From positions 124,001-188,000 of the forward strand of contig JALGZK010000003.1 in assembly GCA_025774935.1 (NCBI GenBank): 64,000 bases of DNA. Direction: 5' to 3'. The translations under genes were made by a program, and so were the position numbers. This stretch comes from a bacterium. GTDB taxonomy: Bacteria > Joyebacterota > Joyebacteria > Joyebacterales > Joyebacteraceae. Shown here in pieces: positions 36,738 through 58,085 of this stretch. The notes under the pieces were generated by a model, which saw only the letters and a program-made list of their open reading frames with translations, had not been told where the DNA came from and ran no database searches. Every line of letters starts with the position of its first letter. Positions within the stretch are counted from its first letter, which is position 1.

Positions 36738-37640
36738 CTAGTAGGGCTTGCCGAGAGACGCCGGCGGGCGGGCGCGTCCGATCACGCCGACCAGGGCGAC
36801 CATCGTGAGCAGGTAGGGAATCATCTGCACGAACTGGGTCGGGACGTCGCGTCCCTGCAGGCTCATCTGCACGGCCTCCGCGTAGCCGAAGAGGAGGCAC
36901 GCGCCGAGCGCCCCGACGGGGTTCCACTTCCCGAAGATCATCGCCGCGAGCGCGATGAACCCGCGGCCTGCCGACATGTTCTTCACGAACTGGTGGGTGT
37001 TGAGGGCCAGGAAGGCGCCGCCGAGGCCCGCGAGCGCGCCGGAGATCAGGACGCCGGAGAACCGCATCAGATGGACGCTCACGCCGAGCGTGTCGACCGC
37101 CTCGGGGTGCTCGCCGGTCGCTCGGAGCCTGAGCCCGAAGGGCGTGCGGAAGAGAACGACATGCGCGAGGGCGACCGAGCCCAGGGCGACGTAGACGAGA
37201 GGCGGGTAGTGCCCGATCACCGGGTTGACGACGCGCGCGAGAACTCCCCACGATTCGGGCAGCGCCCAGTGAGCCATGCCGGCCACGGGCGGCGAGTTGG
37301 CGGAGCTGCCCCAGATGATCCACGTGAGGAACTGCGTCGCCCCCATCGCGAGGAGGTTGATCGCCACGCCGCTGACGATCTGGTCCGCGCGGAACACGAT
37401 CGATACGACGGCGTGAAGGAGGGACACGAGCATGCCCGCGAAGACGCCGGCGGCCGCCCCCGCCCAGGGGTCACCGGTGTAGTACGTCGCGACGATGCTC
37501 GCGAACGCGCCGGTCAGGAGGATCCCCTCGAGGGCGATGTTGACGACCCCCGAGCGCTCCGAGAAGAGGCCGCCGAGCGCCGTCAGGATGAGCGGCGTCG
37601 CCATCCTGAGGGCGGAGTCGAGAACCGCGAGTTCGAACAC
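36738..37640 (-). CDS. Nucleoside ABC transporter permease, NupQ/YufQ type
   Basis: 300 residues, GTG start after AGGGAGAAGG. About eight hydrophobic segments are present. The hallmark ERSGVVNIALEGILLTGAF, followed by VSGVAINLLAMGATQFL and GRGFIALAAMIFGKWNP, identifies the smaller permease of the BMP/Nup nucleoside ABC family (COG1079-like). Partners are the NupP-type permease (39350-40456), the double ATPase and the BMP lipoprotein. It is split from its partner permease by murJ, which is unusual. Confidence 0.88.
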   Translation of the reverse strand: MFELAVLDSALRMATPLILTALGGLFSERSGVVNIALEGILLTGAFASIVATYYTGDPWAGAAAGVFAGMLVSLLHAVVSIVFRADQIVSGVAINLLAMGATQFLTWIIWGSSANSPPVAGMAHWALPESWGVLARVVNPVIGHYPPLVYVALGSVALAHVVLFRTPFGLRLRATGEHPEAVDTLGVSVHLMRFSGVLISGALAGLGGAFLALNTHQFVKNMSAGRGFIALAAMIFGKWNPVGALGACLLFGYAEAVQMSLQGRDVPTQFVQMIPYLLTMVALVGVIGRARPPASLGKPY

Positions 37641-37691: not shown

Positions 37692-39353
37692 CTAGCCGGC
37701 TTCTCCCCTGCCGCGCCGGAGCTTCCCGAGGATCTCACCCACCCCAGACCTCACCATGTCCCACGTCTCGACGATCTGTCCCCGCGCGGTGAACCACGCC
37801 GCCCCGAGGTAGACGGCCGCGGCGAACGCGGAGGCGCCCACAAGGACGCCGATCCGCGGACCGAGAGTCGACGGGACGTCGAGCTGGACGATCCATCGCC
37901 CGAGGTAGTAGAGCGCGACCGCCATGACCGCCGTCGCCGCCGCCGTGCCACCGAACGCCTTCATGAGCGTTTTGAACCGCCCCTTCATGAGCACCGGCGG
38001 AAGCAGGATCAAGAAGAGAACGAGCTTGAACACGTGCGAGACCGACGTCGAGAGCGCGATGCCCGCGTGCTGGAAGCGGTCGAGGAACACGAAGATGAGC
38101 CCGACCTTGACCCCGAGCCTGACGAACCCCGCGATGACCGGCGTCTTCGTGTCCTTCATCGCAATGAACGCCGAGATCATCGTCGTCGTGAGGCCGAGCG
38201 CCCAGATGGTCGGCGAGTAGAGGAGGAGGGCGGACACCGTGTACGCGACGGACGTCTCGTCGAACGCTCCCCGCTGGAAGACGACGCGAACGAACGGCTC
38301 GCCCAGCATCGCCATGCCGACCGAGATCGGGAAGAGACTGAAGAACACGATCCTCATCGAGGTGTGGAGGCGGTCGGCGAGGAGCTCCGTCTCTCCCCGA
38401 GCCGCGAGTCTGGAGTAGAACGGGAAGAGCACGGTCCAGAACGCGGCGACGAGGACCTCCCTCGGGAGGTCGATAAGTCTGAGCGCGTAGGAGAGCCCGG
38501 AGATGCTGCCCTCGGCCAGGCCCGACGCGAACACGCGATCGATGACCTCGTCGAGCTTCGCCCCGGCCATGCCGATGAAGAGCGGAAGCCCCAGCTTGAG
38601 CACGCCCCAGAACATCTGGTTCCTGAAGTCGATGCGAACCCGGATGTGCTTCCGGTACCTCCAGAGGATCGGAGACTGAATGAGGAAGCTCGCGACCGAC
38701 GTCGCGATCGTTCCGAAGGCCATCGCGCGGATGCCGTAGCGCGCCGTGAAGAACAGGGCGACGCACATCATGATGACGTTGCTCGCCGGGTGGGTGAGCC
38801 CGGGCAGGACGAAGCTCCCGTACACGTGATGGACGTTCCGGAGCGTCCCGCCGACCGCGTAGAGGACGATCGTGACCGACATGATCCTGACGAGAGACGC
38901 GGCGAGCTCCCGGCTCGCGTCCCCGAATCCCGGTGCGATCAGCCCCACGAGCGACGGCGCCGCGATCCACACGGTAGTGGCGATCACGATCGACACGACG
39001 ATGAAGTTCCCCACGAACGTGCCGGCCGCGCGCCAGGCCTTCTCCTCCCCCTCCTTCTCGATGATCTCCGAGAAGAGCGGCACGAATCCGGAGCGGATCG
39101 GCGAGCGGTACCAGTGCAGGATCATCATCGGGATCGTCACGGCGACGAGGTACGCGTCCATGAGCGAGGTCGTCCCGAACTTCGACGCGACGACGATGTC
39201 CTTGAAGAGACCGAGCGCCTTTCCGACGACCGAGAGACCAATGACCCACACGGCGGACACGGCCACGCGGGCCAGCTGGCGGCTGTCGCTTCCGGTGGTT
39301 TCGGGTCCGTTCGACCCGATTCCGTTGAGCGTCTCTCCGCTCGAGTCGGTCAA
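37692..39353 (-). CDS. murJ: MurJ/MviN lipid II flippase family protein
   Basis: 553 residues with about 14 hydrophobic segments. The motif ALGLFKDIVVASKFGTTSLMDAYLVAVTIP near the N-terminus and the segment YRSPIRSGFVPLFSEIIEKEGEEKAWR match MurJ/MviN of the MOP exporter superfamily. MurJ moves lipid II across the inner membrane for peptidoglycan synthesis. The start is TTG at 39353 after GGAGGAGG, overlapping the stop of the NupP-type gene in TTGA, so the two are translationally coupled. Its place between two nucleoside permease genes has no obvious functional reason. A paralog exporting another lipid-linked precursor is an alternative. Confidence 0.82.
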   Translation of the reverse strand: MTDSSGETLNGIGSNGPETTGSDSRQLARVAVSAVWVIGLSVVGKALGLFKDIVVASKFGTTSLMDAYLVAVTIPMMILHWYRSPIRSGFVPLFSEIIEKEGEEKAWRAAGTFVGNFIVVSIVIATTVWIAAPSLVGLIAPGFGDASRELAASLVRIMSVTIVLYAVGGTLRNVHHVYGSFVLPGLTHPASNVIMMCVALFFTARYGIRAMAFGTIATSVASFLIQSPILWRYRKHIRVRIDFRNQMFWGVLKLGLPLFIGMAGAKLDEVIDRVFASGLAEGSISGLSYALRLIDLPREVLVAAFWTVLFPFYSRLAARGETELLADRLHTSMRIVFFSLFPISVGMAMLGEPFVRVVFQRGAFDETSVAYTVSALLLYSPTIWALGLTTTMISAFIAMKDTKTPVIAGFVRLGVKVGLIFVFLDRFQHAGIALSTSVSHVFKLVLFLILLPPVLMKGRFKTLMKAFGGTAAATAVMAVALYYLGRWIVQLDVPSTLGPRIGVLVGASAFAAAVYLGAAWFTARGQIVETWDMVRSGVGEILGKLRRGRGEAG

Positions 39354-40456
39354 GCAGCCTCCTCCGCTTGCGTGTCCGCGAGGGCGGCCCGCGCCTCACG
39401 GGCGGCGATCCTCCTCACGAAGATCTCGTTCCCGACAACGACGAGGATGATCGTCACCGCCTGGAGCACGAGGATGAGTTCGCGCGGCACGTCGGTGAAG
39501 ACGTCCACCTCCAGCGCTCCTGCGTTGAGCACTCCGAAGAGGAGCGCCGCGAAGAGCACCCCGAGCGGCGTGTTCTTCCCCAGAAGAGCGACCGCGATCC
39601 CCATGAAACCGATCCCGCTCGAGAAGTTGTCGAGGAAGCGGTGCCGGAACCCCATGACTTCGTTCGTCGCAACGAGGCCGGCGAACGCGCCGCTCGTGAT
39701 CATCGCAAGGACTATCGTGCGCCTGACGTTGATGCCCGCGCTCTCGGCCGCGTCCTGGTTCAACCCGACCGCCCGGACCTCGTACCCGAACGTGGTCCGA
39801 TAGAGGATGAACCACGCCACCCAGACGGCGGCGAGAGCGATGAGGATCGACGCGTTCAGGGGGTTCGCACTCGGCATCGGGATCCCCACGGCCTGGAGCG
39901 CGCCAGCGAGCCGCGGCAGGTGCCCCGACGCGATCTCCGCCGTCTGGGGCGTCATCTGCGCGGGCTCCTTGAAGATGTTGATGACGAGGTAGCTCGTGAG
40001 CCCGATCGCGATGAAGTTCATCATGATCGTGTTGATGACCTCGTGCACGCCGAAGCGCGCCTTGAGCATCCCGGGGACCGAAGCCCAGAGCGCTCCGCCC
40101 ACTGCGGAGACCGCGATCAGGACCGGCACAGCGATCCACCACGGTACCCCGGCGAGGCCGAGTCCGGCCCACGCGCAGAGGAACGACCCGATGTAGAGCT
40201 GACCCTCTCCGCCGATGTTGAAGAGCCCGGCCCTGAACGCGAAGGCAACGGCGAGCCCCGTGAAGATGAGCGGGCACGCGTTGAAGAGCACGAGGCCGAA
40301 ACCGTCGACGCTCCCGAACGCCCCCCGGAAGAGAATCGCGTAGACGCGGAACGGGCTCTCGCCGATGGCCGTGACTACGAGCCCTCCCACGAGGAAGGCC
40401 GCCGCGACCGCGACTATCGGGGACAGGACGCCCGCGTATCTGGTCCAGCGATCCAT
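39350..40456 (-). CDS. Nucleoside ABC transporter permease, NupP/YufP type
   Basis: 368 residues with about ten hydrophobic segments. LFNACPLIFTGLAVAFAFRAGLFNIGGEGQLYIGSFLCAW, VHEVINTIMMNFIA and GFMGIAVALLGKNTPLGVLFAALLFG are typical of the larger permease of the BMP/Nup family (COG4603-like). The ATG follows GAGGAG. The gene is 31 bases after the ATPase gene, and its stop overlaps the murJ start. Family members import purine and pyrimidine nucleosides. Confidence 0.88.
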   Translation of the reverse strand: MDRWTRYAGVLSPIVAVAAAFLVGGLVVTAIGESPFRVYAILFRGAFGSVDGFGLVLFNACPLIFTGLAVAFAFRAGLFNIGGEGQLYIGSFLCAWAGLGLAGVPWWIAVPVLIAVSAVGGALWASVPGMLKARFGVHEVINTIMMNFIAIGLTSYLVINIFKEPAQMTPQTAEIASGHLPRLAGALQAVGIPMPSANPLNASILIALAAVWVAWFILYRTTFGYEVRAVGLNQDAAESAGINVRRTIVLAMITSGAFAGLVATNEVMGFRHRFLDNFSSGIGFMGIAVALLGKNTPLGVLFAALLFGVLNAGALEVDVFTDVPRELILVLQAVTIILVVVGNEIFVRRIAAREARAALADTQAEEAA

Positions 40457-40487: not shown

Positions 40488-42071
40488 TCAGCTCCCCGCC
40501 CGACCTCGCTGCGGCGCTCCGGCCGCGCGCGGGGGCGCGGCCTGGCTTTCGCTTCGTCCGGCTCCGGCCCCGGTCATGTGGAGACCGAGCTCCTCCTCGC
40601 CGACCGCGTCTCCGTCGAACGTCGCGACGATCGCGCCCCGGTACATGACAGCGATCCGGTCGGAGAGCGTCATGATCTCGGAGAGCTCTGCGGACACGAG
40701 GAGCACAGCGGCGCCGGCGTCCCTCATGGAGAGGAGGCTCGTGTGCACGAACTCGACTGCGCCGATGTCGACGCCACGCGTTGGCTGCGACGCCACGAGG
40801 AGGGCCGGCTCGCAGTCGAACTCGCGCGCGACGATGAGCTTCTGTTGGTTCCCGCCGGAGAGGTTCGCGGCCTCGGTGGCGGGATCGGCCGGCCGGAGGT
40901 CGTGTTCCTCGATGAGCCTCGCGGCGTGATCGTTCATCTCGTCGAGGCAGAGACGCCCCAGCCGCGAGAACGGCTCGCGGTGCTGTCGTCCGAGCACGAG
41001 GTTCTCCGCGATCGTGAAGTCGAGAACGAGCCCGCGCGCCTGACGGTCTTCCGGGATGTGGGCCACCCCGAGGTCCCGGATGTGTCTCGGCGAACGGTTC
41101 GTGATGTCGGCGCCGTTCAGCGTCACCCGACCGGACGACGCCCTCCGCAGACCCGTGATGATCTCGACGAGCTCCGTCTGCCCGTTGCCCTGGACGCCTG
41201 CAACTCCGAGGACCTCCCCGGAGCGGATCTCGATGTCGACGTCCCGCAGGACCTCGGTCCCCTTCCGCCCGGCCGCCGAGAGCCCGCTCACGGAGAGCAC
41301 CGTGTCGCCGGGGCTGCCCTCTTCCTTCGTGACCCGGAGGAGGACGTAACGCCCGACCATCATCTTCGCGAGCTCCTCCTTCGTCGTCTGCGCCGCGTCG
41401 ACGATGCCCGTCACGCGGCCGTCACGCATGACGGTGACGCGGTCGGCAAGTTCGATGACCTCGTCGAGCTTGTGGGTGATGAAGACGATCGTGCGACCGC
41501 TCTCCCTGAGAGCGCGGAGGATACCGAAGAGCTCGCGGACTTCCTGAGGGGTGAGGACGCCGGTCGGTTCGTCGAGGATGAGGATCCTCGCACCGCGGTA
41601 GAGGACCTTGACGATCTCGACCCTCTGCTCGAGGCCGACCGAGAGGTTCTCGATGAGCTCGTCCGGGTCGAGCTCAAAGCCGTACTCGCCGGAGAGCGTT
41701 TCGACGCGTTCGCGCGCGGCCGCCGCGTCGATCACGACACCCCTAGTCGGCTCCTCGCCGAGGATGACGTTCTCCGCGACGGTCAGCGTGTCGACGAGCA
41801 TGAAGTGCTGGTGGACCATTCCGACGCCGGCGCGGATGGCGTCCGCCGGGCGGTGCCGGACGAGCGGCTTCCCCTCGAGCCGCACCTCACCGGCGTCCGG
41901 AGGAACGAGCCCGTAGAGGACCTTCATGAGCGTCGACTTGCCCGCGCCGTTCTCGCCGACGATGGCGTGTATCTCGCCCTCGCGGACGTCGAGGTCGACG
42001 CGGTCGTTCGCGAGAACGCGCGGGTACCGTTTGGTGATCCCGCGCATCTCGATCGCGTTCGTCTCCGGCAT
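40488..42071 (-). CDS. Nucleoside ABC transporter double ATPase, NupO/YufO type
   Basis: 527 residues with two ABC domains in tandem. The first has Walker A GENGAGKST (about 39-47), MVHQHFMLV, signature LSVGLEQRVEIVKVL and Walker B ARILILDEPT. The second (about 260-500) has a degenerate Walker A, GVQGNGQTEL, signature LSGGNQQKLIVARE and LLVASQPTRGVDIG. A degenerate second site is usual in RbsA/NupO-type ATPases. It belongs with the BMP lipoprotein 24 bases upstream and the permeases downstream. The last 30 residues are Ala/Gly/Arg-rich and probably disordered. Confidence 0.9.
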   Translation of the reverse strand: MPETNAIEMRGITKRYPRVLANDRVDLDVREGEIHAIVGENGAGKSTLMKVLYGLVPPDAGEVRLEGKPLVRHRPADAIRAGVGMVHQHFMLVDTLTVAENVILGEEPTRGVVIDAAAARERVETLSGEYGFELDPDELIENLSVGLEQRVEIVKVLYRGARILILDEPTGVLTPQEVRELFGILRALRESGRTIVFITHKLDEVIELADRVTVMRDGRVTGIVDAAQTTKEELAKMMVGRYVLLRVTKEEGSPGDTVLSVSGLSAAGRKGTEVLRDVDIEIRSGEVLGVAGVQGNGQTELVEIITGLRRASSGRVTLNGADITNRSPRHIRDLGVAHIPEDRQARGLVLDFTIAENLVLGRQHREPFSRLGRLCLDEMNDHAARLIEEHDLRPADPATEAANLSGGNQQKLIVAREFDCEPALLVASQPTRGVDIGAVEFVHTSLLSMRDAGAAVLLVSAELSEIMTLSDRIAVMYRGAIVATFDGDAVGEEELGLHMTGAGAGRSESQAAPPRAAGAPQRGRAGS

Positions 42072-42095: not shown

Positions 42096-43106
42096 CTACT
42101 CCTTCGGGACGATGATCTCGCCGGCCACGATCGCCGCCTTCGCTTCCTCCACTCTCGCGATCATCTCGTCGGTGATCATGTCCTCGTTGTACTGGTCGAC
42201 GGCGTAGGCGATGCCGTCGTCCGCGAGACCGAACTCCCTGAGGCCTCCCTCGAAAATCCCCTCGAGGGCCGACTGGACGATCCTGTAGACGGCGTTGTCG
42301 ACGCGCTTGACCATGCTTGTGAGCACGTTCCCGGGAGCCATGTAGTTCTGGTTCGAGTCGACACCGATCGCGTACCTGTTGACCTCCTTCGCCGCCTCGA
42401 TCACTCCGTTCCCGGTGCTGCCGGACGCGTGATAGATGACGTCGACGCCGCGTCCGTACTGAAGGAGGGCAAGCTCCTTGCCCTTCGCCGGATCGGCGAA
42501 CGCCTGCGGCGTCGTTCCAGCGTACGCGACGGTCGTGGAGATGCCGGGGGTCACGTACCGCGCACCCGCGATGTATCCCGCCTCGAACTTGTGGATGAGC
42601 GGGATGTCCATCCCGCCCACGAACCCGAGCCGTCCGGTCTCCGTGTACATCGCCGCGAGCACGCCGACCAGAAACGACCCCTCCTCCTCGCGGAACGTGA
42701 GGCCGGCCAGGTTCGGAGGGAGCGTCTCATCGGGCCGCGCGTCGAAGTCGACGCACGCGAAGCTGACGTTCGGGTAGTCGACGGCCACCTTCCTCATCGC
42801 CTCGCTGAAGAGGAACCCGACTCCGATGATGACGTCGTAGTCGGCCTGCGCGAGCTTCCTGAGCCCTGTCTCCCGGTCGGCGTCCTGTCCGGGCTCGAAC
42901 TCGGTGTGCTCGACGCCGAAATCGTCGGCGGCGCGGAGGAGACCCCGGTAGGCCGAGTCGTTGAACGACTTGTCGCCCTTCCCACCCACGTCGAAGACCA
43001 TGCCGACGCGGAAGGCCCCGCTGCCGCCCCCCTCGCGCGTGGCGTTGCATCCTGCGGCGAACGCGACGACGAGGACCGCGAGCAGGAGCGCTGTGGCTTT
43101 CATCAT
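42096..43106 (-). CDS. BMP-family nucleoside-binding lipoprotein
   Basis: 336 residues with lipobox AFAAGC (Cys about 20). MVFDVGGKGDKSFNDSAYRGL is the BmpA/PnrA/Med signature; NVSFACVDFD, GFVGGMDIPLIHKFEAGYIAGA and VIYHASGSTGNGVIEAA are also typical. PnrA and Lactococcus BmpA bind purine nucleosides, so this is the likely binding protein of the Nup-type transporter. AAAGGAG precedes the ATG, which overlaps the stop of the MFS gene in ATGA. A second in-frame ATG follows directly and is also possible. Confidence 0.88.
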   Translation of the reverse strand: MMKATALLLAVLVVAFAAGCNATREGGGSGAFRVGMVFDVGGKGDKSFNDSAYRGLLRAADDFGVEHTEFEPGQDADRETGLRKLAQADYDVIIGVGFLFSEAMRKVAVDYPNVSFACVDFDARPDETLPPNLAGLTFREEEGSFLVGVLAAMYTETGRLGFVGGMDIPLIHKFEAGYIAGARYVTPGISTTVAYAGTTPQAFADPAKGKELALLQYGRGVDVIYHASGSTGNGVIEAAKEVNRYAIGVDSNQNYMAPGNVLTSMVKRVDNAVYRIVQSALEGIFEGGLREFGLADDGIAYAVDQYNEDMITDEMIARVEEAKAAIVAGEIIVPKE

Positions 43107-44459: not shown

Positions 44460-46178
44460 CTAGACGAACAGATCCGTCAGCTCGAACTCGTTCACGTCGA
44501 AGAGGCCCTTGTCGGTGACCTTGAGCTCCGGGATGACCGGCAGCGCGAGGAACGACATTGCCATGAACGGATCGGCCAGCTTCGAGCCCAACCGTCTTGC
44601 CGCCTTCCTCACCGTGTCGAGTCCCTCGACGACCTCGGGCAGCGTCCCTTCGGACATGAGCCCGGCGATCGGCAGCGGCAGCCCGGCGATCAGCTTCCCG
44701 TCTCGAACGACGGCGAGTCCGCCACGCATCTTCGAGATCTCGACCACGGCGGCCATCATGTCCTCGCTCGACGTTCCCACGACGACGATGTTGTGGGAGT
44801 CGTGGGCGACGGAACTCGCGATGGCGCCCTTCTTGAGACCGAATCCCCTCACGATGCCGTGTCCGATGTTCTCGCTCGCGAGGTGTCGCTCGACGACCGC
44901 GAGCGGGAGGAGATCGCGCTCGGTGTCCGCGACGACGCGCCCGTCCTCGACCTTCGGTGCCGCGACGCTCGCCTTGGTCACGATCTGGTCCGGTACGAGG
45001 TCGATGACCTTGACCCGCTTCCCCTTCGCGGGGATGTCGAAGTCCTCGGGCGCGAGCCACTTGATGTTGATCGAGCTCCGGAGGGTGATCTCCGGCATGC
45101 GGGGCCTCGGAACGACCATCTCCCCGTTCTCAGCCACCACCTTCCCGCTCTTCAGGACCATCTTCACGTTGAACCGCTTCAGGCTATCCACGACGACGAG
45201 GTCCGCGGCATACCCGGGCGCGATCGCCCCCAGGTCTTTGAGGCCGAAGTACTGCGCCGTGTTGATCGTCGCGAGTCTGATGGCGGAGACGGGATCGAGG
45301 CCCTCCTTTACTGCCATCTTGACCATGTGGTCGATGTGGCCCTTCTCCAGGAGGTCCTTCGGATGCCGGTCGTCGGTGACGAAGAAGCAGCGTGACAGGT
45401 TCTCGCAGGTGACGGCCGGCAGGAGGTCCAGCAGGTTCTTCGTGACCGAGCCCTCGCGGATCATGATGTACATGCCGAGCCTGAGCTTCTCGATGACCTC
45501 GTCGATCGCCGTGCTCTCGTGGTCCGACGTCACGCCGGCCGCGACGTAGGCGTTCAGGTCCTTGCCCGTGAGGCCCGGAGCGTGGCCGTCGATCCTCTTC
45601 GACTTGTCTTCGGTCATGGAGATCTTGTCGAGGAGCCCCTCGTCCTCTCGCAGGACGCCGGGGTAGTTCATCATCTCCCCCAGACCGAGGACCCACTTCT
45701 CCCGGAGAAGCGGGTAGAGGTCGAACCCCCTCAGGTTCGCGCCGCTCGTCTCGAACTTGGTTGCCGGAACGCACGACGACAGCATGACGAAAATGTTGAC
45801 CGGACTGTACTTGCTGGAGTTCAGGATGTAATGGATCCCCTCTAGTCCGTGGACGTTCGCGATCTCGTGGGGGTCGCAGACGACGGAGGTCGTGCCGCGT
45901 GGCACCACCGACCTGGCGAACTCCTGGACCTTCACCATCGTGCTCTCGACGTGCATGTGGCCGTCGATGAGCCCCGGCAGCACGAACGCCCGGCCGAGGT
46001 CCATCTCCTTCTTGCCGCTGTACTCCCCGATCCCGACGATCCTCTCCCCCCAGATGGCGATGTCGGCCGGGTACACCTCGGCCGAGAAGACGTTCACGAC
46101 ACGCCCGTTCTTGATGACGAGCTCCGGCTGGATCTGTCCCCTCGCCGCCCTGATGATCCTCGTCATTCCCTCTTTCAT
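44460..46178 (-). CDS. ade: Adenine deaminase
   Basis: 572 residues, the normal size for Ade (EC 3.5.4.2; adenine to hypoxanthine plus ammonia). Metal ligands are visible in PGLIDGHMHVESTMV (about 68-82). CDPHEIANVHGLEG, GLGEMMNYPGVL and GHAPGLTGKDLNAYVAAGVTSDHE follow, all hallmarks of Ade. The C-terminal part has VAHDSHNIVVVG. GGAG precedes the chosen ATG by seven bases; an internal ATG five codons in (MTRII) is an alternative. The gene is 13 bases after carbamate kinase. It would feed adenine into the hypoxanthine/xanthine route used by the hydroxylase subunits of the same operon. Confidence 0.93.
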   Translation of the reverse strand: MKEGMTRIIRAARGQIQPELVIKNGRVVNVFSAEVYPADIAIWGERIVGIGEYSGKKEMDLGRAFVLPGLIDGHMHVESTMVKVQEFARSVVPRGTTSVVCDPHEIANVHGLEGIHYILNSSKYSPVNIFVMLSSCVPATKFETSGANLRGFDLYPLLREKWVLGLGEMMNYPGVLREDEGLLDKISMTEDKSKRIDGHAPGLTGKDLNAYVAAGVTSDHESTAIDEVIEKLRLGMYIMIREGSVTKNLLDLLPAVTCENLSRCFFVTDDRHPKDLLEKGHIDHMVKMAVKEGLDPVSAIRLATINTAQYFGLKDLGAIAPGYAADLVVVDSLKRFNVKMVLKSGKVVAENGEMVVPRPRMPEITLRSSINIKWLAPEDFDIPAKGKRVKVIDLVPDQIVTKASVAAPKVEDGRVVADTERDLLPLAVVERHLASENIGHGIVRGFGLKKGAIASSVAHDSHNIVVVGTSSEDMMAAVVEISKMRGGLAVVRDGKLIAGLPLPIAGLMSEGTLPEVVEGLDTVRKAARRLGSKLADPFMAMSFLALPVIPELKVTDKGLFDVNEFELTDLFV

Positions 46179-46191: not shown

Positions 46192-47145
46192 TTACGCCCC
46201 GCTCACCTGCCTCGTGATCCGCGTCCCGGTCTCTCCGTCGAGCGCGCGACCGATCGACTCGGGGTTCGTGATGATGACCTCGTCTCCGCCCCCCTCTATG
46301 AACGCGACCCCCGCGAGGATCTTCGGACCCATACTCCCCGCCGGGAAGTGCCCCTCTTCGTGATAGCGGCGCGCGCTGTCGACCGTGAGCTCGCGGAGCC
46401 ACGTCTGGTTCTCGGCTCCGAAGTTGAGCGCGACGCGCTCGACGTCGGTCGAGATGATGAGGAGATCGGCCCCGATGTCGTTCGCGAGGAGCCGCGAGGC
46501 GTGGTCCTTGTCGATCACCGCCTCGACGCCCCTGAGCTTGCCGTCCTCCTCGACCACGGGGATGCCGCCCCCGCCGACACCGATCACCACGCACCCGGCG
46601 GCGAGCAGGGCCTTGATCGCGTCTGCCTCGACCACGCGCGTCGGCATGGGCGAGGGCACAACGCGACGCCACCCGCGGTTCGCGTCCTCGACGACGTTCC
46701 ACCCCTCCTCCAGCTCCTTGCGCTCCGCTTCCTCCTGAGTGTAGAAAGGCCCGATCGGCTTCGAGGGACTCGCGAATGCCGGGTCGGCGCGATCGACGAC
46801 CGTTTGCGTCACCACGGTGACGACGGTCCTGTCCACCCCGCGTGCGCGGAGCTCGGCGCCGAGCACCTGCTGGATCATGTAGCCCATGCCGCCCTGCGAG
46901 TCGGCCCCGCAGGTGTCGAGCGGGAGCGGGGGAAGCACCGTCGTGGCGAGCTCGGCCCGCAGGAGGATGTTCCCGACCTGCGGTCCGTTCCCGTGCGTCA
47001 CGACGACGTCGTACCCCCTCGCGATCATATCGGCGATGTGCCGGCTCGTCTCCTTCGCGTTCGCGAACTGCTCGGGGATGGTCCCTCGCTGTCCTGCCTT
47101 GGTGATCGAGTTCCCCCCGATCGCGACGACTGCCAGTGTTCCCAT
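46192..47145 (-). CDS. arcC: Carbamate kinase
   Basis: 317 residues from MGTLAVVAIGGNSITK; AGGAGAGG lies about ten bases upstream, and the in-frame extension upstream has no family similarity. VVTHGNGPQVGNILLR, CGADSQGGMGYMIQQ, GVGGGGIPVV and SMGPKILAG are ArcC motifs. In catabolism the enzyme transfers phosphate from carbamoyl phosphate to ADP, giving ATP, CO2 and ammonia. Its place directly after two carbamoyltransferases and before adenine deaminase argues for energy recovery from purine-derived ureido groups, as proposed for YqeA in E. coli. Confidence 0.93.
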   Translation of the reverse strand: MGTLAVVAIGGNSITKAGQRGTIPEQFANAKETSRHIADMIARGYDVVVTHGNGPQVGNILLRAELATTVLPPLPLDTCGADSQGGMGYMIQQVLGAELRARGVDRTVVTVVTQTVVDRADPAFASPSKPIGPFYTQEEAERKELEEGWNVVEDANRGWRRVVPSPMPTRVVEADAIKALLAAGCVVIGVGGGGIPVVEEDGKLRGVEAVIDKDHASRLLANDIGADLLIISTDVERVALNFGAENQTWLRELTVDSARRYHEEGHFPAGSMGPKILAGVAFIEGGGDEVIITNPESIGRALDGETGTRITRQVSGA

Positions 47146-47209: not shown

Positions 47210-48217
47210 CTACTCGGGCCCCATCGTGAGGGCCATGACCGCCTTTTGCGCGTGGAGCCGGTTCTCCGCCACGTCGTAGATGATCGACCGTTCTGCATCG
47301 CACACGTCGTCGTCCGCCTCGTTCTCGCGGTCGATTGGCATCGGGTGGATGAAGTAGGCGTCGTTCGTCCGCTTCAACCGCTCTGAGGTCGCGCGCCAGT
47401 CCTGGTGCTCGGCCGAGAGCTTCACGTCGGCCTCTCGGCCCTCGGTGTAGCGGCTCGGGTGCATCCAGTGCCGAGAGTAGACCACGTCGGCGCCCTCGTA
47501 CGCGGCTTCCTGATCGTGCGTGACCTCGAACGACGCCGCGTTCTCCGCGCAGTTCGCCCTCGCCTGTTCGACGACCTCGGGGTCGAGCTCGAAGCCCTCG
47601 GGATACGCGAGACGGACGTTCATCCCGAGGCGCGAGTTGATGAGGATGCTCTCCTGCACGGAGCTCCACGAACGGACCATCGGCGAGTAGCCCCAGATCT
47701 GGAGGAGCGTCTTCCCGCTCGTGTCTCCCATGTGCTCGCGGAGTCCCTGTACGTCAGCCAGCCCCTGGCACGGGTGGAACTTGTCGTGTGCCATGCTCAC
47801 GACCGGCACGTCCGCGATCTCCGCGAACTCCCTGAGGAACGCGTCGCCATCGCCATACCCCTCGACCGAGTCCTCGAGGATCCGGATCCCGATCCCGCAT
47901 GAGTACCTCGCCATCACGTTCGCGGTGTCGTGGAGGACCTCTCCCCTCTGCGTGCTCGTGCGGAGCCGGAGTTTCGACGGCTCGAGGAACTGGGCGTGTC
48001 CGCCGAGCTCGGTCGCCGCGGCCTCGAAGGACTGCCTGGTCCTGAGCGACGAGTTGTAGAACATCATCATGAACGTCCGGGCCCGGAGGATGTTCTCGTG
48101 CTCCGGACTGAACCGCTCCCGTTTCATCTTCGCGGCGAGCTCGAGGGTCGCTTCGATCTCCGCGACGCTCCAGTCCTGCGTGCAGATTAGGTCGCGCCCC
48201 CTGAGGTCAACTACCAT
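47210..48217 (-). CDS. Carbamoyltransferase of the AOTC/YgeW-like clade, copy 2
   Basis: 335 residues from MVVDLRGRDLICTQ (GGGAGGT seven bases upstream). The carbamoyl-phosphate loop reads SLRTRQSFE (residues 57 on) instead of the STRTR of classical ornithine and aspartate enzymes, as in acetyl- or succinylornithine carbamoyltransferases. HPCQGLAD is conserved. The usual C-terminal HCLP motif is HPMP here, nearer the HPLP of aspartate carbamoyltransferases. The protein ends AENRLHAQKAVMALTM. The start overlaps the stop of copy 1 by 11 bases. Beside carbamate kinase it probably works in the phosphorolytic direction, but the ureido substrate is unknown. Confidence 0.82.
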   Translation of the reverse strand: MVVDLRGRDLICTQDWSVAEIEATLELAAKMKRERFSPEHENILRARTFMMMFYNSSLRTRQSFEAAATELGGHAQFLEPSKLRLRTSTQRGEVLHDTANVMARYSCGIGIRILEDSVEGYGDGDAFLREFAEIADVPVVSMAHDKFHPCQGLADVQGLREHMGDTSGKTLLQIWGYSPMVRSWSSVQESILINSRLGMNVRLAYPEGFELDPEVVEQARANCAENAASFEVTHDQEAAYEGADVVYSRHWMHPSRYTEGREADVKLSAEHQDWRATSERLKRTNDAYFIHPMPIDRENEADDDVCDAERSIIYDVAENRLHAQKAVMALTMGPE

Positions 48218-49277
48218 CGCCGCCACCTCCCACTCTGTCCATAGTGAGTGCCATGATCGCCTTCTGCGCGTGGAGCCGGTTCTCGGCTTCGTCAAAGACG
48301 ACCGAGTGCGGACCGTCGATGACCTCGTTCGTCACCTCGTACCCGCGGTCGCACGGAAGGCAGTGCATGTACTTGACGTCCTTGTCGGCCAGTCCGAGCT
48401 TGGCGTCGTTGCAGATCCAGTCCTTGTTCGCGTCGAAGAGCGCCTGCGTCTCGTCGAGCATCGGCTTCTCCGCGATGGGCGGGATGAGCTCCTTCGACGT
48501 CCAGGCTTTCGGGTAGACGACGTGAGCGCCTTCGAACGCGGCCTCCATGTCGTTCACGATCTCGAAGCTCCCGCCCGACCCAGCGGCGCGCTCCCTCGTC
48601 GCGGCGAGGATCTCGTCGTCGAGCTCGAGCCCCTCGGGGTGCGCCAGCACGACGTCGCAGCCCACCGTCGCGGCCGCGATGACCACGCTCTGCGGGACCG
48701 AGAGCGGCTTGTGGACCGACGGGCTGTAGGCCCAGCTCATCACGAACTTGACGCCCTTGAATCCGCCGAAGTGCTCGCGCACGGTCATGATGTCGGCCAT
48801 GGCCTGACAGGGATGGAAGATGTCGCACTCCATGTTGATGACCGGGATGTCGGCCCACCGCGCGAACTCGCGGACGATGCGGTTCGCCTTGCCGTAGATC
48901 CAGTCGACGGGATCCCCGTACATGCGGATCGAGATGCCGTGCCCCATGCGGTCGAGCACGCGCGCCACGTCCGAGACGCGTTCGGTCGAGTACGCGACCT
49001 CGTCACCCTCGAGCGCCGGCGTGTAGATCTTCCCCGGGTCCAGGAAGTGTGCGTGGCCGCCCATCTGCGTCATCCCCGCCTCGAAGCTGTTCCTGGTCCT
49101 CAGCGACTGGTTGTAGAAGATCATGAAGAGCGTCCGGTCCTCGAGGTACTTGTGGGGCGCTCCCCTCTTGAACTTCTCCTTGAGCACGTCGGCGAAGTCG
49201 AGGATCGTCTCGACCTCGTCCTTCGTGTAGTCGAGGATGGTGATGAAGTCCCTGCCGTTGAACCGCGTGTCGATCAT
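48207..49277 (-). CDS. Carbamoyltransferase of the AOTC/YgeW-like clade, copy 1
   Basis: 356 residues from MIDTRFNGRDFIT, four bases after GGAGGT; the start at 49304 lacks a binding site. The phosphate loop is SLRTRNSFEAGM (58 on), HPCQAMAD is at 155 on, and MSWAYSPSVHKPLSVPQ closely resembles the MTWAYSPSxGKPLSVPQ stretch I recall from E. coli YgeW. MHCLPCDRG gives the HCLP motif that copy 2 lacks. The end DEAENRLHAQKAIMALTM resembles acetylornithine carbamoyltransferase. YgeW acts in the purine-degradation gene set of E. coli. The context here, between the hydroxylase FAD subunit and carbamate kinase, supports a similar role. Confidence 0.85.
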   Translation of the reverse strand: MIDTRFNGRDFITILDYTKDEVETILDFADVLKEKFKRGAPHKYLEDRTLFMIFYNQSLRTRNSFEAGMTQMGGHAHFLDPGKIYTPALEGDEVAYSTERVSDVARVLDRMGHGISIRMYGDPVDWIYGKANRIVREFARWADIPVINMECDIFHPCQAMADIMTVREHFGGFKGVKFVMSWAYSPSVHKPLSVPQSVVIAAATVGCDVVLAHPEGLELDDEILAATRERAAGSGGSFEIVNDMEAAFEGAHVVYPKAWTSKELIPPIAEKPMLDETQALFDANKDWICNDAKLGLADKDVKYMHCLPCDRGYEVTNEVIDGPHSVVFDEAENRLHAQKAIMALTMDRVGGGGDGS

Positions 49278-49322
49278 CGATACCTCCGTGTGTGAGATTC
49301 CCATGCGCGCACTCGGCGCGTT

Positions 49323-50219
49323 CTACCCGTCTTCCTCCAGATCGAGGCAGAGCCGCCTCAGCGCCGACCGTGTCAGCGTCTCGATCAGAATCCGCCGGTA
49401 TCTGCCGGAAGCCCGTACGTCGTCGATACAGCTCGCGCTCCCGACGGCGCGCGCCGCGACCGCGTCGATCACGGCTTCACAGTCGCCCGCCGGCCACTCC
49501 GACTCGAACAGGTTCTCCGCGTCACGCGCCCTCACGGCGGTCGGCGCGACCGAGCCGAGCGCGATCCGGACGAGCCCCGCCTCCGGTTCGTAGAGAGCTG
49601 CGACGGACACGATGGCGATGGCGAGCGCCTTCCTCTGCCCCGCCTTGAGATAGAGACTCCGCGCGCTCTCCGCCGGGCAGTCGAAGGAGATGTCCGCGAT
49701 GAGTTCGTCATCCCTGAGCACTGTCTCGCCGGGACCCGTGAAGAAGCCCTCGAGCGGGAGACCGGCCCGGTCGCCCTCGCAGTCGTCAGCCGAGACGACT
49801 CTGACGGCGGCGTCCAGGGCGAGGAGCGCGACGGCGGCGTCCGCCGCGGGCGACGCGTTCGCCACGTTCCCGCCGACCGTGCCGCGAGAGCGAATCTGAG
49901 GCGAACCGACCGTCGCGCACGCCTCCGCGAGAAGCGGGACGTGCTGGCGGACGAGGTCGTCGCGGGCGAGTGCCCCGTGCGTGTTGAGCGCTCCCATCGT
50001 CATCTGTCCGACCGCGTCGGGATCGGGCGTGAGGTCCACGCCTCCGAACTCCTCGATCCCGGCGAGGTCGACCAGCACCTCGGGACGTTCGTCGCCGCTC
50101 CTGAGACGGGCGGTAAGGTCGGTGCCGCCCGCTATGGGCGTCGCTCGTCCCGCCGCTTCGCGGAGGATCTCGGCCGCCTCAAGGGCAGTCGTCGGGAACT
50201 TCCACGCCGGCTCGTACAT
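49323..50219 (-). CDS. xdhB: Xanthine dehydrogenase-type FAD-binding subunit
   Basis: 298 residues, normal for separate FAD subunits (XdhB/YgfM). FAD motifs PIAGGTDLTARLRSG (about 28-42) and SPQIRSRGTVGGNVANASPAAD (about 105-126) are clear, and a CO-dehydrogenase flavoprotein C-terminal domain follows. It passes electrons from the 2Fe-2S subunit to NAD or another acceptor. GGGAGGGG precedes the ATG, which lies 41 bases inside the yqeB gene, so translation is coupled. Its 2Fe-2S partner is 6 kb upstream in the same operon (56347-56820), and no molybdenum subunit is in the window. Confidence 0.9.
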   Translation of the reverse strand: MYEPAWKFPTTALEAAEILREAAGRATPIAGGTDLTARLRSGDERPEVLVDLAGIEEFGGVDLTPDPDAVGQMTMGALNTHGALARDDLVRQHVPLLAEACATVGSPQIRSRGTVGGNVANASPAADAAVALLALDAAVRVVSADDCEGDRAGLPLEGFFTGPGETVLRDDELIADISFDCPAESARSLYLKAGQRKALAIAIVSVAALYEPEAGLVRIALGSVAPTAVRARDAENLFESEWPAGDCEAVIDAVAARAVGSASCIDDVRASGRYRRILIETLTRSALRRLCLDLEEDG

Positions 50220-51069
50220 CGACCGTCCCCTCCCGGTTCGTCTCGTCGACCGGGACGACTCCGCGCCCGAGGAGGGCCTCGAGCACCGCGCCGCCGACTG
50301 CGGCCGCCTTGTCCGACACGGCGGCGGGGTCGACCGCCGACCCGCGAGGGTCGACGTCGCCCGCCTTCGCCCCCTCCGAGAGCCGAACCCCGTCGGCGAC
50401 GAGCCCGCGTACGAGCCCTGCGACTCCCGCCCGGACCGGGCGGCCGGCGACGTGTCCCACGACGTCGCCCTCGTCGACGAGATCGCCGATCGACCTTACG
50501 GACTCGAACGTCCCGTCCGCGGGCGAACGCATCACGCGCCCGGACGTCACCCCGGCGATCTCGCCGGGGAGGCCGGTGTCCGGGGCGGCGGCTCCCGATT
50601 CGATGACGAGTCCGAGGGAGTCCCCTCTCTTCGTCTCGATGACGAGGTCGACGTCGCGGCCAGCCTCGAACCCGGGACCGAGCCCGATCGTCACGGGCGC
50701 GTCGCCGCGTCCGGTGCCGAGGTTGACCTTCGCCATCCGTGCGTCGACGACGGCCCGAGGACGCAACACTCGGATCGCGCGCCCGTCCGGATCGACGACG
50801 ACGGGCACCCGGTCGTCCGCCTCGTCGGAGGACGCGCGCGCGCGAGCGAGTTCGGAAAGCACGTCCGGCTCGACCCGGCGCGCCGAGATCCCGTCGACCT
50901 CGGCTTCGCCGGAGAAGACGGCCTCGGCGAACGCCGCGGCGCGCCGCACGACGGTCGGGGACTCCGCCTCGAGAACGACCACCCGGTACCCCGAGCGGTG
51001 AAGTGTCGCGGCGACCCCAGTCCCGAGGTCCCCGCCGCCCCGTACGATGACGAGAGACCGAGCGCTCAT
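50179..51069 (-). CDS. yqeB: YqeB-family accessory protein of selenium-dependent molybdenum hydroxylases
   Basis: 296 residues from MSARSLVIVRGGGDLGTGVAATLHRSG; the ATGA overlap with the XdhC gene fixes this start. The N-terminal Rossmann-like region with RGGGDLxTGxAxxLHRxGYxVVVLE and the later segment DARMAKVNLGTGRGDAPVTIGLGPGFEAGRDVDLVIET are characteristic of the EF2563/YqeB family. These proteins accompany molybdenum hydroxylases that carry a labile selenium ligand. Their exact chemistry is not settled. Presence here suggests that the xanthine-dehydrogenase-like enzyme is of the selenium-dependent kind, which is an inference. Confidence 0.88.
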   Translation of the reverse strand: MSARSLVIVRGGGDLGTGVAATLHRSGYRVVVLEAESPTVVRRAAAFAEAVFSGEAEVDGISARRVEPDVLSELARARASSDEADDRVPVVVDPDGRAIRVLRPRAVVDARMAKVNLGTGRGDAPVTIGLGPGFEAGRDVDLVIETKRGDSLGLVIESGAAAPDTGLPGEIAGVTSGRVMRSPADGTFESVRSIGDLVDEGDVVGHVAGRPVRAGVAGLVRGLVADGVRLSEGAKAGDVDPRGSAVDPAAVSDKAAAVGGAVLEALLGRGVVPVDETNREGTVDVRAGVEVPDDCP

Positions 51070-51893
51070 GTCCGGCTCACACCCTTGTGGACGCCCTTGT
51101 CCTTCAGCATCGCCGTGTCTTCGATGCCGTGGCGGACGGCGATCATCTCGGCCACGACCGATACCGCGATCTCCTCGGGAGTCTCGGCGCCGATGTCGAG
51201 TCCTATCGGCGCGTGGACCGTACGGAGTGCCGCGGCGGGCACACCGTCCGCCTCGAGCTTCTCGAAGCTCGCACGGACCTTCTCGACGCTCCCGATCATC
51301 CCGACGTACCTCGGACGGCACGGCAGGAGGACCTTCACCCAGTCCTGATCGAAGCGGTGCCCGCGCGTGACAACGACCACGAACGTCGCCTCGTCGACGG
51401 CGATCGGATCGTGCATGAGCTCGGTGCCGCCGACGAGCCTCCTGTCGGCGGACGGGAAGCGCTCCTCGCTCACGACACCCTCGCGGTCGTCGACCACCGT
51501 GACCCGGAACCCCGCGCGCTTCGCGGCCGCGGCCACGGCCTGGCCGACGTGTCCGCCGCCGACGATGAGAACCGCCGGGCCGGCCGCGATCGGCTCGAGG
51601 AAGATGTCCATCCTCCCGCCGCACGTCATGCCAACGTCATCCCCGAGATCGTACGAGAGCAGAACGGGTTCGTTCGAGCTCACCAGTTCACGGGCTCGCT
51701 CGATCGTCTCCGCCTCGATCGCCCCGCCCCCGACCGTCCCGACCGTCCGCCCGTCCGGATAGACGATCATCTTCGCGCCGGCCCCGCGCGGCGTGGATCC
51801 GCCGGCGGACACGACCGTCGCGACGACGCCTCCGACAGCCTCGCGGTGCATTCGGGCGATCTCATCGTAGAGGTCGGCGAGCTTCAGAGACAT
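51066..51893 (-). CDS. XdhC/CoxI-family molybdenum hydroxylase maturation protein
   Basis: 275 residues from MSLKLADLYDEIARMH; GGAGAGG precedes this ATG, and the 23-residue in-frame extension is unsupported. The N-terminal XdhC/CoxI domain has STPRGAGAKMIV, GTVGGGAIEAE and DVGMTCGGRMDIFLEPI. The C-terminal Rossmann domain has VGGGHVGQAVAAAAKRAGF. Proteins of this family bind and sulfurate the molybdenum cofactor before insertion into xanthine dehydrogenase. I leave the symbol blank because xdhC means an iron-sulfur subunit in E. coli. It overlaps yqeB by four bases. Confidence 0.88.
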   Translation of the reverse strand: MSLKLADLYDEIARMHREAVGGVVATVVSAGGSTPRGAGAKMIVYPDGRTVGTVGGGAIEAETIERARELVSSNEPVLLSYDLGDDVGMTCGGRMDIFLEPIAAGPAVLIVGGGHVGQAVAAAAKRAGFRVTVVDDREGVVSEERFPSADRRLVGGTELMHDPIAVDEATFVVVVTRGHRFDQDWVKVLLPCRPRYVGMIGSVEKVRASFEKLEADGVPAAALRTVHAPIGLDIGAETPEEIAVSVVAEMIAVRHGIEDTAMLKDKGVHKGVSRT

Positions 51894-51924
51894 CTCGTAC
51901 CTCTCCAAAAGGAAAACCGACCCC

Positions 51925-51949
51925 GCGGCACGCCGGAGCGGCACGCCGG
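51925..51949. repeat. 12-bp direct repeat in the mocA-xdhC gap
   Basis: GCGGCACGCCGG occurs at 51925-51936 and again at 51938-51949, one base apart. It lies in the 135-base gap between the nucleotidyltransferase and XdhC-family genes, the largest gap inside the operon. It could be an operator or simply slippage. No promoter boxes were seen beside it. Confidence 0.5.
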
Positions 51950-52028
51950 GCCGGAGTCCCATGCCGGCGCGCAGATGCGCACCGACGCGCTGCCGTCCGT
52001 GGACGACCGACGGTCTTCGGACGGATTA

Positions 52029-52631
52029 CTACTGGGGGTCGAGCCCGTCCTTGACCGCCACGTAGTCGTCCCATTCGTCGATGTCGACGAGGAACTTGTC
52101 GTCCCCAAGATCGACGTCGACGACGGAGTCGGCTTCGCGCTCCAGGATGTGCCGCGCTCCGGCGTCTCCCTCGAGCGCCTCGAGTTCGGCTCCGAAGGAG
52201 CCGTCGAGAACGACCGGGTGCCCGCGCCTTCCCGCGAAGGAGGGCACTGCGATCCGCGCGCCCTTCGCGTGGGCGTCGACAAGCGCGTCGACGTCCTCGG
52301 TGCGGAAGAACGGTGCGTCGCCAAGCACGACGATGTATGCGCCCGTCCCCCACGAGCACGCGGCGACACCGTGTGCGAGCGACGTCCCCATCCCTTCGGC
52401 GAAACGCATGTTAGCGATCAGCTCGACGCGCTCGTCGCCGATGCCGCAGAGCGCCTGCCCGACATCGTTGGCCCTGTAACCGAGCACCACGACGACCTCG
52501 TCGACCTTCTTCGAAGCGAGGAGCTTCCCGACGACCGTGCGGATCATCGGCTCACCGACGATCGGCAGGACCTCTTTCTTGTCCTTCATCCGCTTCGATT
52601 CGCCCGCTGCAAGAACGACTGCAGATACCAT
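52029..52631 (-). CDS. mocA: Molybdenum cofactor nucleotidyltransferase (MocA/YgfJ-like)
   Basis: 200 residues of the MobA-like NTP-transferase fold. The N-terminal loop VLAAGESKRMKDKKEVLPI (5 on) fits LAAGxSxRMGxxK with a Lys-Asp insertion-like change, and VVLGDAPFF supplies the metal-binding Asp (usual GDMP). MocA transfers CMP to molybdopterin to make the cytosine dinucleotide cofactor used by many hydroxylases; YgfJ is the paralog next to selenium-dependent hydroxylase genes in E. coli. With YqeB and XdhC encoded just downstream, a role in preparing the hydroxylase cofactor is likely. GGAAGG precedes the ATG. Confidence 0.85.
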   Translation of the reverse strand: MVSAVVLAAGESKRMKDKKEVLPIVGEPMIRTVVGKLLASKKVDEVVVVLGYRANDVGQALCGIGDERVELIANMRFAEGMGTSLAHGVAACSWGTGAYIVVLGDAPFFRTEDVDALVDAHAKGARIAVPSFAGRRGHPVVLDGSFGAELEALEGDAGARHILEREADSVVDVDLGDDKFLVDIDEWDDYVAVKDGLDPQ

Positions 52632-52684
52632 AGTTCCTTCCGGGAGCTTCGAGTCCGCGAGGGACCTCGCCGCCCACGCCCGTA

Positions 52685-56346: not shown

Positions 56347-56820
56347 TTACGCCGACGCCTTCTCAATCGCGTCGACGATCTTCACGTACCCCGTGCACCT
56401 GCACAGGTTCCCCGACACCGCTCTCTCGATCTCACTCCGCGAGGGGGCCGGGTTCGACGCAAGGAGCGCGTAAGCCGACATGATCATCCCGGGTGTGCAG
56501 TACCCGCACTGGACCGCCCCGACCTCGACGAACGCGCGCTGGATCGGGTGCCGCTCGCCGTCGGAGTCGGAAGCCGCGCCGGCGTCGGCGAGTCCCTCGA
56601 TCGTGAGAACCTCGCGACCCGCGCACTGCACGGCGAAGACGAGGCACGAGTTCACCGGTTCGCCGTCGAGGATCACGGTGCACGCGCCGCACTCCCCGTG
56701 CCCGCACCCCACCTTCGTTCCCGTGAGGCCGAGGTGCTCCCGGAGGAGCTCGACGAGCGTCGTGGTCGGCCCGACGTCTGCGAACCGCTCGCGTCCGTTG
56801 ACAGTCAGCGTGATCTCCAC
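56347..56820 (-). CDS. Xanthine dehydrogenase-type 2Fe-2S subunit
   Basis: 157 residues from a GTG at 56820 (VEITLTVNGRERF), just after AGAGGAG; the longer frame upstream is not family-like. The first 2Fe-2S cluster ligands are in GCGHGECGACTVILDG and NSCLVFA. The second cluster ligands are in CGYCTPGMIM and CRCTGYVKIVDAI. Such subunits pass electrons from the molybdenum centre to the FAD subunit. It lies 17 bases after the threonine-synthase-like gene. The FAD partner is encoded 6 kb downstream in the same operon. The catalytic molybdenum subunit is missing from the window. Confidence 0.92.
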   Translation of the reverse strand: MEITLTVNGRERFADVGPTTTLVELLREHLGLTGTKVGCGHGECGACTVILDGEPVNSCLVFAVQCAGREVLTIEGLADAGAASDSDGERHPIQRAFVEVGAVQCGYCTPGMIMSAYALLASNPAPSRSEIERAVSGNLCRCTGYVKIVDAIEKASA

Positions 56821-56837: not shown

Positions 56838-58085
56838 CTAAATCTCCGCCCGGTCCCTGAGCGCCCGCTCGACGTCCTCGAGCGAGCGTCCGACGGGCAC
56901 CGCTTCCCCTGCAGCTCGCATGGCGCTCTCGGTGTCCTTCAGACCGCTTCCCGTCATGAGCACGACGACGGTGTCGTCGGGGGTGACGGAGCCCTCGCGG
57001 ACCGCCGCGGCCAGTCCCGCGAACGCGGTCACGCCGGCGGGCTCGCCGAATACGCCCGTTGACCTTGCGAGCTCGGCCATCCCCGCGAGGATCGCGTCGT
57101 CGGGGACGGCCATCATGCGTCCCCCGCTCGCCCGAACACCTCGCACGGCCTTCCGCCAGTTGCGGGGATGGCCGCACGCGATGCTGTCGGCGCAGGTGTC
57201 GGCCTCACACGGCACGAGCTCGCAGAGCCCGTCGAAGGCCTCCCTGATCGGGTCACACCCTTCGGCCTGGACCCCGACTAGCTCCGGGACCTTCTCCGTG
57301 AACCCGAGCTTCTCGAACTCCGCGAATCCCTTGTAGACGCCGCTCATGATGCACCCGTCGCCTACGGGGACGAAGACCTTGTCGGGCACCTCGAAGTCAA
57401 GCTGTTCGCACACTTCGAGAGCGACGGTCTTCTTCCCCTCGACAAGGTAGGGGTTCACGGCGCAGGAGCGGTTGTACCAGCCGAAAGCAGCGATCGCCTC
57501 GGACGCGAGATCGAACGCGTCGCCGTAGGTGCCGTCTACGGCGAAGACGGTCGCCCCGAGCACCAGCAGCTGCGCGACCTTCGGCGAGGGCGCGTCGGCC
57601 GGAACGAAGATGTAGCACGGCAGTCCCTGCGCCGCCGCAAAGCCCGCAAGCGAGCACCCGGCGTTGCCGGTCGACGCCGCCGCGACCGCCGAAACGCCCT
57701 CCTCCGCCGCCCGCGCCATCGCTACCGACGTCGCGCGGTCCTTGAGCGACGCCGTCGGATTCATGCTGTCGTCCTTGACGTACAGGTTCGGAAGCCCGAG
57801 GACGCCCTCAGCGTGATAGAGCGGGGTCCAGCCCGTCCTTAGAACCGGGAGCGTCTCTTCCGAGCCGATCGGCAGGAGCGGCATGTAGCGCCAGTGGGAG
57901 TTTTCGATGGACCGCTCGAGGTCGGCGCGGGAGAACTCCCTCGCGATCTCGTCGTAGTCGTAGAGGACGTCGAGAATCCCCTCGAGCCCGCAGTCGACGC
58001 AGGTGTACGTCACCTCGCCCGGCGCGTATACCCGGTCGCACAACACGCACTTGAATCCCGTGACCCTCGCGCCGCTCCGATCCAT
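56838..58085 (-). CDS. Threonine synthase-like pyridoxal-phosphate enzyme with N-terminal zinc ribbon
   Basis: 415 residues. The ATG at 58085 overlaps the SsnA stop (TGATG) and follows GGAAGG. A four-cysteine zinc ribbon (Cys13, Cys16, Cys29, Cys32) precedes a fold type II core with the cofactor lysine Lys115 in NPTASLKDRATS, then ASTGNAGCSLAGFAAAQG and VLMTGSGLKD. Threonine synthases make threonine from phosphohomoserine. In E. coli the comparable position of the purine gene set is taken by YgeX, a diaminopropionate ammonia-lyase of the same fold. A beta-eliminating or replacing activity on a purine-derived amino acid is therefore possible, but true threonine synthase is not excluded. Confidence 0.8.
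   Translation of the reverse strand: MDRSGARVTGFKCVLCDRVYAPGEVTYTCVDCGLEGILDVLYDYDEIAREFSRADLERSIENSHWRYMPLLPIGSEETLPVLRTGWTPLYHAEGVLGLPNLYVKDDSMNPTASLKDRATSVAMARAAEEGVSAVAAASTGNAGCSLAGFAAAQGLPCYIFVPADAPSPKVAQLLVLGATVFAVDGTYGDAFDLASEAIAAFGWYNRSCAVNPYLVEGKKTVALEVCEQLDFEVPDKVFVPVGDGCIMSGVYKGFAEFEKLGFTEKVPELVGVQAEGCDPIREAFDGLCELVPCEADTCADSIACGHPRNWRKAVRGVRASGGRMMAVPDDAILAGMAELARSTGVFGEPAGVTAFAGLAAAVREGSVTPDDTVVVLMTGSGLKDTESAMRAAGEAVPVGRSLEDVERALRDRAEI

Follow-up and report, generated by a model that had tools for sequence, protein, structure and literature searches.

What can two different transcarbamylases do beside a single carbamate kinase? The question is raised by a pair of genes, here called CT1 and CT2, in the window (the whole 64,000-nucleotide stretch of bacterial DNA that was analyzed). 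A sequence-only reading had described them as overlapping, non-identical tandem carbamoyltransferases feeding one carbamate kinase, and the gene arrangement is as it described. Both genes are on the minus strand, the CT2 ATG at 48217 gives an overlap of 11 nt with the end of CT1, the products are 42% identical, and a single carbamate kinase gene, scoring above its model cut-off, follows both copies. The motifs also agree: SLRTR, HPCQ and AENRLHAQKA are common to both products, HCLP belongs to CT1 and HPMP to CT2, and the YgeW-like stretch that had been noticed in CT1 is the proline-rich loop SPSVHKPLSVPQ. An internal ATG of CT1 at 49277 (codon 10) is a plausible alternative start. Both products match Pfam OTCace_N and OTCace (E <= 2e-32). 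Based on dN/dS values of about 0.09-0.23 against relatives, alike in CT1 and CT2, both are constrained genes under purifying selection. The tandem is found in at least 17 genomes of the window's family and recurs across many phyla. Coordinates are collected in Table 1.

Table 1 Genes of the tandem transcarbamylase locus and its surroundings
Feature	Position	Strand	Details
CT1, knotted transcarbamylase, sister to the E. coli YgeW clade	48207..49304	-	ORF from first ATG
CT2, second knotted transcarbamylase, separate clade, second-substrate residues altered	47210..48217	-	
Carbamate kinase (ArcC type)	46192..47145	-	TIGR00746 400.8 bits, cut-off 358.25
SsnA aminohydrolase, reductive urate pathway marker	58085..59473	-	NF005540 553 bits, cut-off 444
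Threonine-synthase-like fold-type-II PLP enzyme, recurrent neighbour, possibly replacing YgeX	56838..58115	-	
2Fe-2S subunit, xanthine-dehydrogenase-type molybdenum hydroxylase	56347..56820	-	
MocA/YgfJ-like molybdenum cofactor nucleotidyltransferase	52029..52631	-	
XdhC-type maturation factor	51066..51962	-	
YqeB, molybdenum hydroxylase maturation	50179..51069	-	TIGR03309 317 bits, cut-off 220
FAD subunit, xanthine-dehydrogenase-type molybdenum hydroxylase	49323..50219	-	
Adenine deaminase	44460..46178	-	TIGR01178 651 bits, cut-off 472.5
PnrA/Bmp-type substrate-binding protein, probably nucleoside uptake	42096..43106	-	PF02608
ABC transporter ATPase, two ATPase domains	40488..42071	-	
ABC transporter permease 1	39350..40456	-	
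ABC transporter permease 2	36738..37640	-	
D-hydantoinase, just past window end	C2:188489-189892		~5 kb beyond SsnA; TIGR02033 448 bits, cut-off 393

Working with E. coli enzymes, Li et al. (2025) described a pathway in which urate is reduced to yanthine, yanthine is opened by YgfK and SsnA to ureidomethyl-hydantoin, and HyuA forms 2,3-diureidopropionate; YgeW then phosphorolyses one ureido group, YgeY hydrolyses the other, and YgeX deaminates to give pyruvate (PMC12507026). The accompanying survey of pathway variants assigns one ureido group to YgeW or UacY and the other to YgeY, and a second transcarbamylase is not mentioned among these variants (PMC12507026). The order in which the ureido groups are cleaved is disputed (PMC12990295).

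The CT1-CT2 pair lies in a minus-strand run from 59473 to 36738, with a gene order that is kept through the window's family. The run starts with SsnA, the PLP enzyme, the xanthine dehydrogenase (XDH) 2Fe-2S subunit, a PCC-domain protein, a split transketolase and an aminotransferase. It continues with the MocA-like protein, XdhC, YqeB, the XDH FAD subunit, CT1, CT2 and carbamate kinase, and it ends with adenine deaminase, an MFS transporter and a Bmp-type ABC uptake system. Both pathway markers at the locus, SsnA and the hydantoinase (HyuA), score above their cut-offs. The reductase of the yanthine step has a candidate in a PreA/PydA-like protein (534 bits, cut-off 335), whose gene lies ~55 kb from the cluster, beyond it. 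YgeY is absent from the window genome and from 16 sampled family members (best match ~32 bits, cut-off 321), and the window genome encodes three clear M20 peptidases, which belong to the CpsA, dipeptidase and aminopeptidase types. None of its PALP genes scored best as diaminopropionate ammonia-lyase (YgeX). Its other PALP genes are of the cysteine synthase, cystathionine synthase, threonine dehydratase and tryptophan synthase types, with one more left unassigned. Across phyla, the PLP enzyme at 56838-58115 recurs beside CT pairs or SsnA, where E. coli has YgeX, and could be another type of diaminopropionate lyase.

Several further features of the window were recorded. The split transketolase (two genes) and the aminotransferase at 52685-55849 are kept within the purine cluster through the family. 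The cluster encodes XDH 2Fe-2S and FAD subunits (49323-56820) without a molybdenum subunit; three candidate molybdenum subunits are encoded on contigs C7, C18 and C30, one of them fused and located beside 8-oxoguanine deaminase. In most family members, a MurJ-like gene (37692-39353 in the window) separates the two nucleoside-type ABC permease genes; its conservation is lower than that of the adjoining genes. Outside the cluster, the similar lengths of three successive minus-strand ORFs at 503-15377 (1574-1583 aa) suggest tandem paralogues.

Judged by sequence, CT1 and CT2 belong to the knotted transcarbamylase group, not to ornithine (OTC) or aspartate (ATC) transcarbamylases. In a tree of 81 transcarbamylases (supports given as value pairs), the knotted group that includes both is apart from OTC and ATC with support of 100/100. 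E. coli YgeW groups with the CTs of YgeY-carrying genomes (100/98). CT1 falls with the relatives that partner CT2 in a distinct clade (100/99), which is sister to the YgeW clade (99/84) and not inside it. CT2 forms a separate clade (100/99) outside both, and this clade is undescribed. Both proteins carry the loop insertion of the knotted group that is missing from OTC, and the CT2 loop is without several of the prolines. Against the YgeW models TIGR03316 and NF005538, CT1 scores 168.5 and 176.9 bits and CT2 121.3 and 126.4 bits, below the cut-offs of 500 and 453. In the alignment, the extra N- and C-terminal helices and the extended 240s loop of YgeW are found in neither protein, both of which are shorter.

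We compared active-site residues using YgeW numbering, after the family review (PMC4581275). The carbamoyl-phosphate residues S71, R73, T74, R122, H165 and Q168 are invariant in all rows, including 57 of 57 CT2 sequences. The second-substrate positions are each fixed, but differently in each clade. Taking the YgeW clade, CT1 and CT2 in that order, the 80s-loop residue is Q, Y and R, position 160 is Q/E, E and A, position 203 is K/R, K and S, and position 270 is K, K and R. The conserved lysine that opens the 240s loop is Lys in CT1 and Arg in CT2, and three arginines (R84, R182 and R249) are conserved in CT2. CT1 is like YgeW in its knotted type, in the retention of K270 and K203 at the presumed second-substrate site and in belonging to an SsnA cluster with carbamate kinase, but it is shorter and has Glu at Q160 and Tyr in place of the 80s-loop Gln. 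CT2, in contrast, differs from YgeW at every one of these second-substrate positions. Because the carbamoyl-phosphate residues are kept while the second-substrate residues are changed, CT2 is predicted to be a carbamoyl-phosphate enzyme with a rebuilt second pocket.

The distribution of CT2 was evaluated across 386 sampled genomes, mostly one from each of different families, with CT2 counted outside the window's family. SsnA was identified in 16 of 17 CT2 genomes and in 47 of 353 genomes without CT2 (Fisher p = 1.3e-12, genome relatedness being incompletely corrected). A second knotted CT is encoded in 15 of these 17 CT2 genomes, usually adjacent to CT2. Within the window's family, a genome without CT1 and CT2 (G007) is also without SsnA. 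SsnA matches of >300 bits occur in 45 genomes of a set of 49 named ones with CT2, and YgeY above the cut-off in 16.

YgeY shows a contrasting pattern. Where an SsnA genome encodes a single knotted CT, YgeY accompanies it in 29 of 30 cases, versus 10 of 16 with CT2 outside the family (Fisher p = 0.005, and p = 0.005 also with one row per family; relatedness is incompletely corrected), and in no CT2 genome sampled inside the family. Most of the genomes are metagenome-assembled, so gene absences are uncertain except in near-complete ones. Beyond the window's family, roughly half of the families with CT2 have YgeY alongside CT1-CT2, in some genomes in the same operon (L170), and three Elusimicrobia loci (L116, L124 and L154) have YgeY-like M20 genes just below the cut-off. 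We therefore reject the idea that CT2 replaces YgeY everywhere, given that the two coexist in some clusters. Where they do, YgeY could be a second option or an enzyme with another substrate. As the CT1 partners of CT2 form a clade apart from the YgeY-partnered CTs, the exchange concerns the CT pair.

Two comparisons of close relatives capture this exchange. In genus g108, two genomes (G304 and G429) have YgeY and a CT of the YgeW clade with their carbamate kinase, whereas G168, on a single contig, carries carbamate kinase, CT1 and CT2 at the place of YgeY-YgeW, followed by the same downstream gene. Identity is 91% between the carbamate kinases and 54-84% across the flanks, with 75-84% for XdhC and its neighbour upstream and a related gene downstream; between the CTs it is only 46%. 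In family f14, one genome (G032) has YgeY and one CT inside its SsnA cluster, and another (G229) has the same cluster genes without YgeY, plus a CT1-carbamate kinase-CT2 locus elsewhere. Together these exchanges are the strongest evidence that CT1-CT2 may do the work of YgeW-YgeY. Given the same slot in g108 and the same neighbours, the two pairs presumably carry out the same net conversion, from diureidopropionate to diaminopropionate. The difference is that a second transcarbamylase stands in for the M20 hydrolase YgeY, in which case phosphorolysis of the second ureido group would conserve its energy.

The locus is thus probably a variant of the anaerobic reductive urate (yanthine) pathway in which CT1 and CT2 between them phosphorolyse both ureido groups of 2,3-diureidopropionate. 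This variant is based on gene content, phylogeny, conservation, co-occurrence with SsnA and exchange with YgeY-YgeW, and from these we infer its substrates, step order, catalysis and ATP yield. CT1, the YgeW counterpart, would take the first ureido group; if the specificity reported for YgeW holds, it would remove the 2-ureido group and leave albizziin. CT2 would then take the second, leaving 2,3-diaminopropionate, which a PLP enzyme of the cluster probably deaminates. Each phosphorolysis would yield carbamoyl phosphate, from which the adjacent carbamate kinase would form ATP, giving two ATP per ring; a single ATP is expected when the second group is hydrolysed by YgeY. A chemical precedent for the step assigned to CT2 is the DPTCase of antibiotic clusters, which carbamoylates L-2,3-diaminopropionate to beta-ureidoalanine (PMC4581275), the reverse of the proposed CT2 reaction. 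DPTCase belongs to the unknotted OTC branch and has an HDLP motif (PMC4581275), whereas CT2 is knotted and has HPMP. The DPTCase/UGTCase motif, HDLP or H(T/S)LP, is matched by neither HCLP of CT1 nor HPMP of CT2. The sequence-only reading had already proposed one enzyme per ureido group. The SsnA/hydantoinase cluster, the lack of YgeY and the g108 swap support that proposal; some other CT2 genomes keep YgeY as well.

Those genomes bear on an alternative that we consider unlikely, in which CT1 performs the YgeW step, CT2 acts on a different ureido compound (for example from another purine or pyrimidine branch) and an unrecognized hydrolase removes the second group. The 10 SsnA genomes that combine CT2 with YgeY would fit such a division of labour, as would CT2 and carbamate kinase occurring without CT1 nearby and second-substrate residues unlike those of YgeW and CT1. 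Yet CT2 tracks SsnA very closely, and in the g108 swap YgeY is lost along with YgeW and nothing but CT1 and CT2 is gained. G168 has a single YgeY-like M20 gene; it scores 196 bits, and G304 and G429 have similarly scoring counterparts beside their true YgeY, which argues against it as the missing hydrolase.

It is less plausible still that CT1 and CT2 form one mixed trimer that catalyses a single step, with CT2 in a structural or regulatory role. In its favour are the overlap and usual adjacency of the two genes and the position of known transcarbamylase active sites between subunits (PMC4581275). However, the invariance of all the counted carbamoyl-phosphate residues makes CT2 look catalytic, and several loci have CT2 without CT1 nearby.

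AlphaFold models of the two proteins are confident (mean pLDDT of 93 for CT2 and 88 for CT1) and match solved transcarbamylases. The nearest PDB folds are acetylornithine transcarbamylase (AOTC) and OTC, with the Xanthomonas AOTC best for CT2, and this fold comparison does not discriminate function. CT2 is like the Xanthomonas AOTC in its knotted fold, best NCBIfam model and best PDB fold, and unlike it in its sub-cut-off score, in having no E92 or N185 and in its catabolic cluster. AOTC is the best NCBIfam match of both proteins (CT1 279 and CT2 249 bits, cut-off 288). The equivalents of AOTC E92, N185 and K302 are T, K and E in CT1 and G, S and E in CT2, and the OTC DxxxSMG motif is missing (KAWTSKE in CT1, RHWMHPS in CT2). 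Despite the shared folds and best scores, we reject the highly improbable option that either copy is a misplaced anabolic ornithine, acetylornithine or succinylornithine transcarbamylase, based on the sub-cut-off scores, the missing motif residues, the grouping of neither copy with OTC or AOTC in the tree, and the separate OTC (with SMG motif) and ATC that the window genome encodes elsewhere. The sequence-only reading had named a firm grouping with anabolic enzymes, in a genome whose arginine pathway lacks that step, as its own refutation, and this did not occur.

The preferred reading, phosphorolysis of both ureido groups by CT1 and CT2, concerns a widely spread clade. Among 84,980 species genomes scanned, 187 CT2 relatives were identified, and the 80 retained include Elusimicrobia, Chloroflexi, genomes deposited as Deltaproteobacteria, WOR-3, Cloacimonadota, Verrucomicrobia, Thorarchaeota and Lokiarchaeota. 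The CT2 clade spans Effluviviacota (the phylum of the window), Elusimicrobia, Chloroflexi and Asgard archaea. CT2 with carbamate kinase and without CT1 in the examined locus sequence was found at several loci, mostly in Myxococcota and one in Bacillota. No carbamate kinase was seen at the loci near the Asgard CT1-CT2 pairs, and the neighbours of these pairs and of the lone Myxococcota CT2 genes, scanned for substrate clues, gave no clear answer. The neighbours of the Thorarchaeota CT1-CT2 pairs (L118:6106-19275) include a protein of the penicillin amidase family and an ABC transporter of the oligopeptide type, and carbamate kinase is not among them. In some Elusimicrobia, Auribacterota and genome G365, CT2 is partnered by knotted transcarbamylases of a third deep clade (L094:5720-6820, L105:638-1675 and L156:12533-13567).

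On balance, and a little less firmly than for the pathway variant itself, we favour a new function for CT2, the catabolic phosphorolysis of a ureido-amino-propionate; together with CT1 it would constitute a two-ATP-per-ring module for anaerobes, found across many bacterial phyla and in Asgard archaea. Elucidation of the reductive urate pathway dates only from 2025. If our reading is true, the ATP conserved at this stage would be doubled, and a function would be assigned to a widespread clade whose member in the window, CT2, falls below every NCBIfam transcarbamylase cut-off. It would also provide enzyme pairs to compare, which could settle which ureido group goes first. More broadly, it would point to purine breakdown in many uncultured lineages, Asgard archaea among them.
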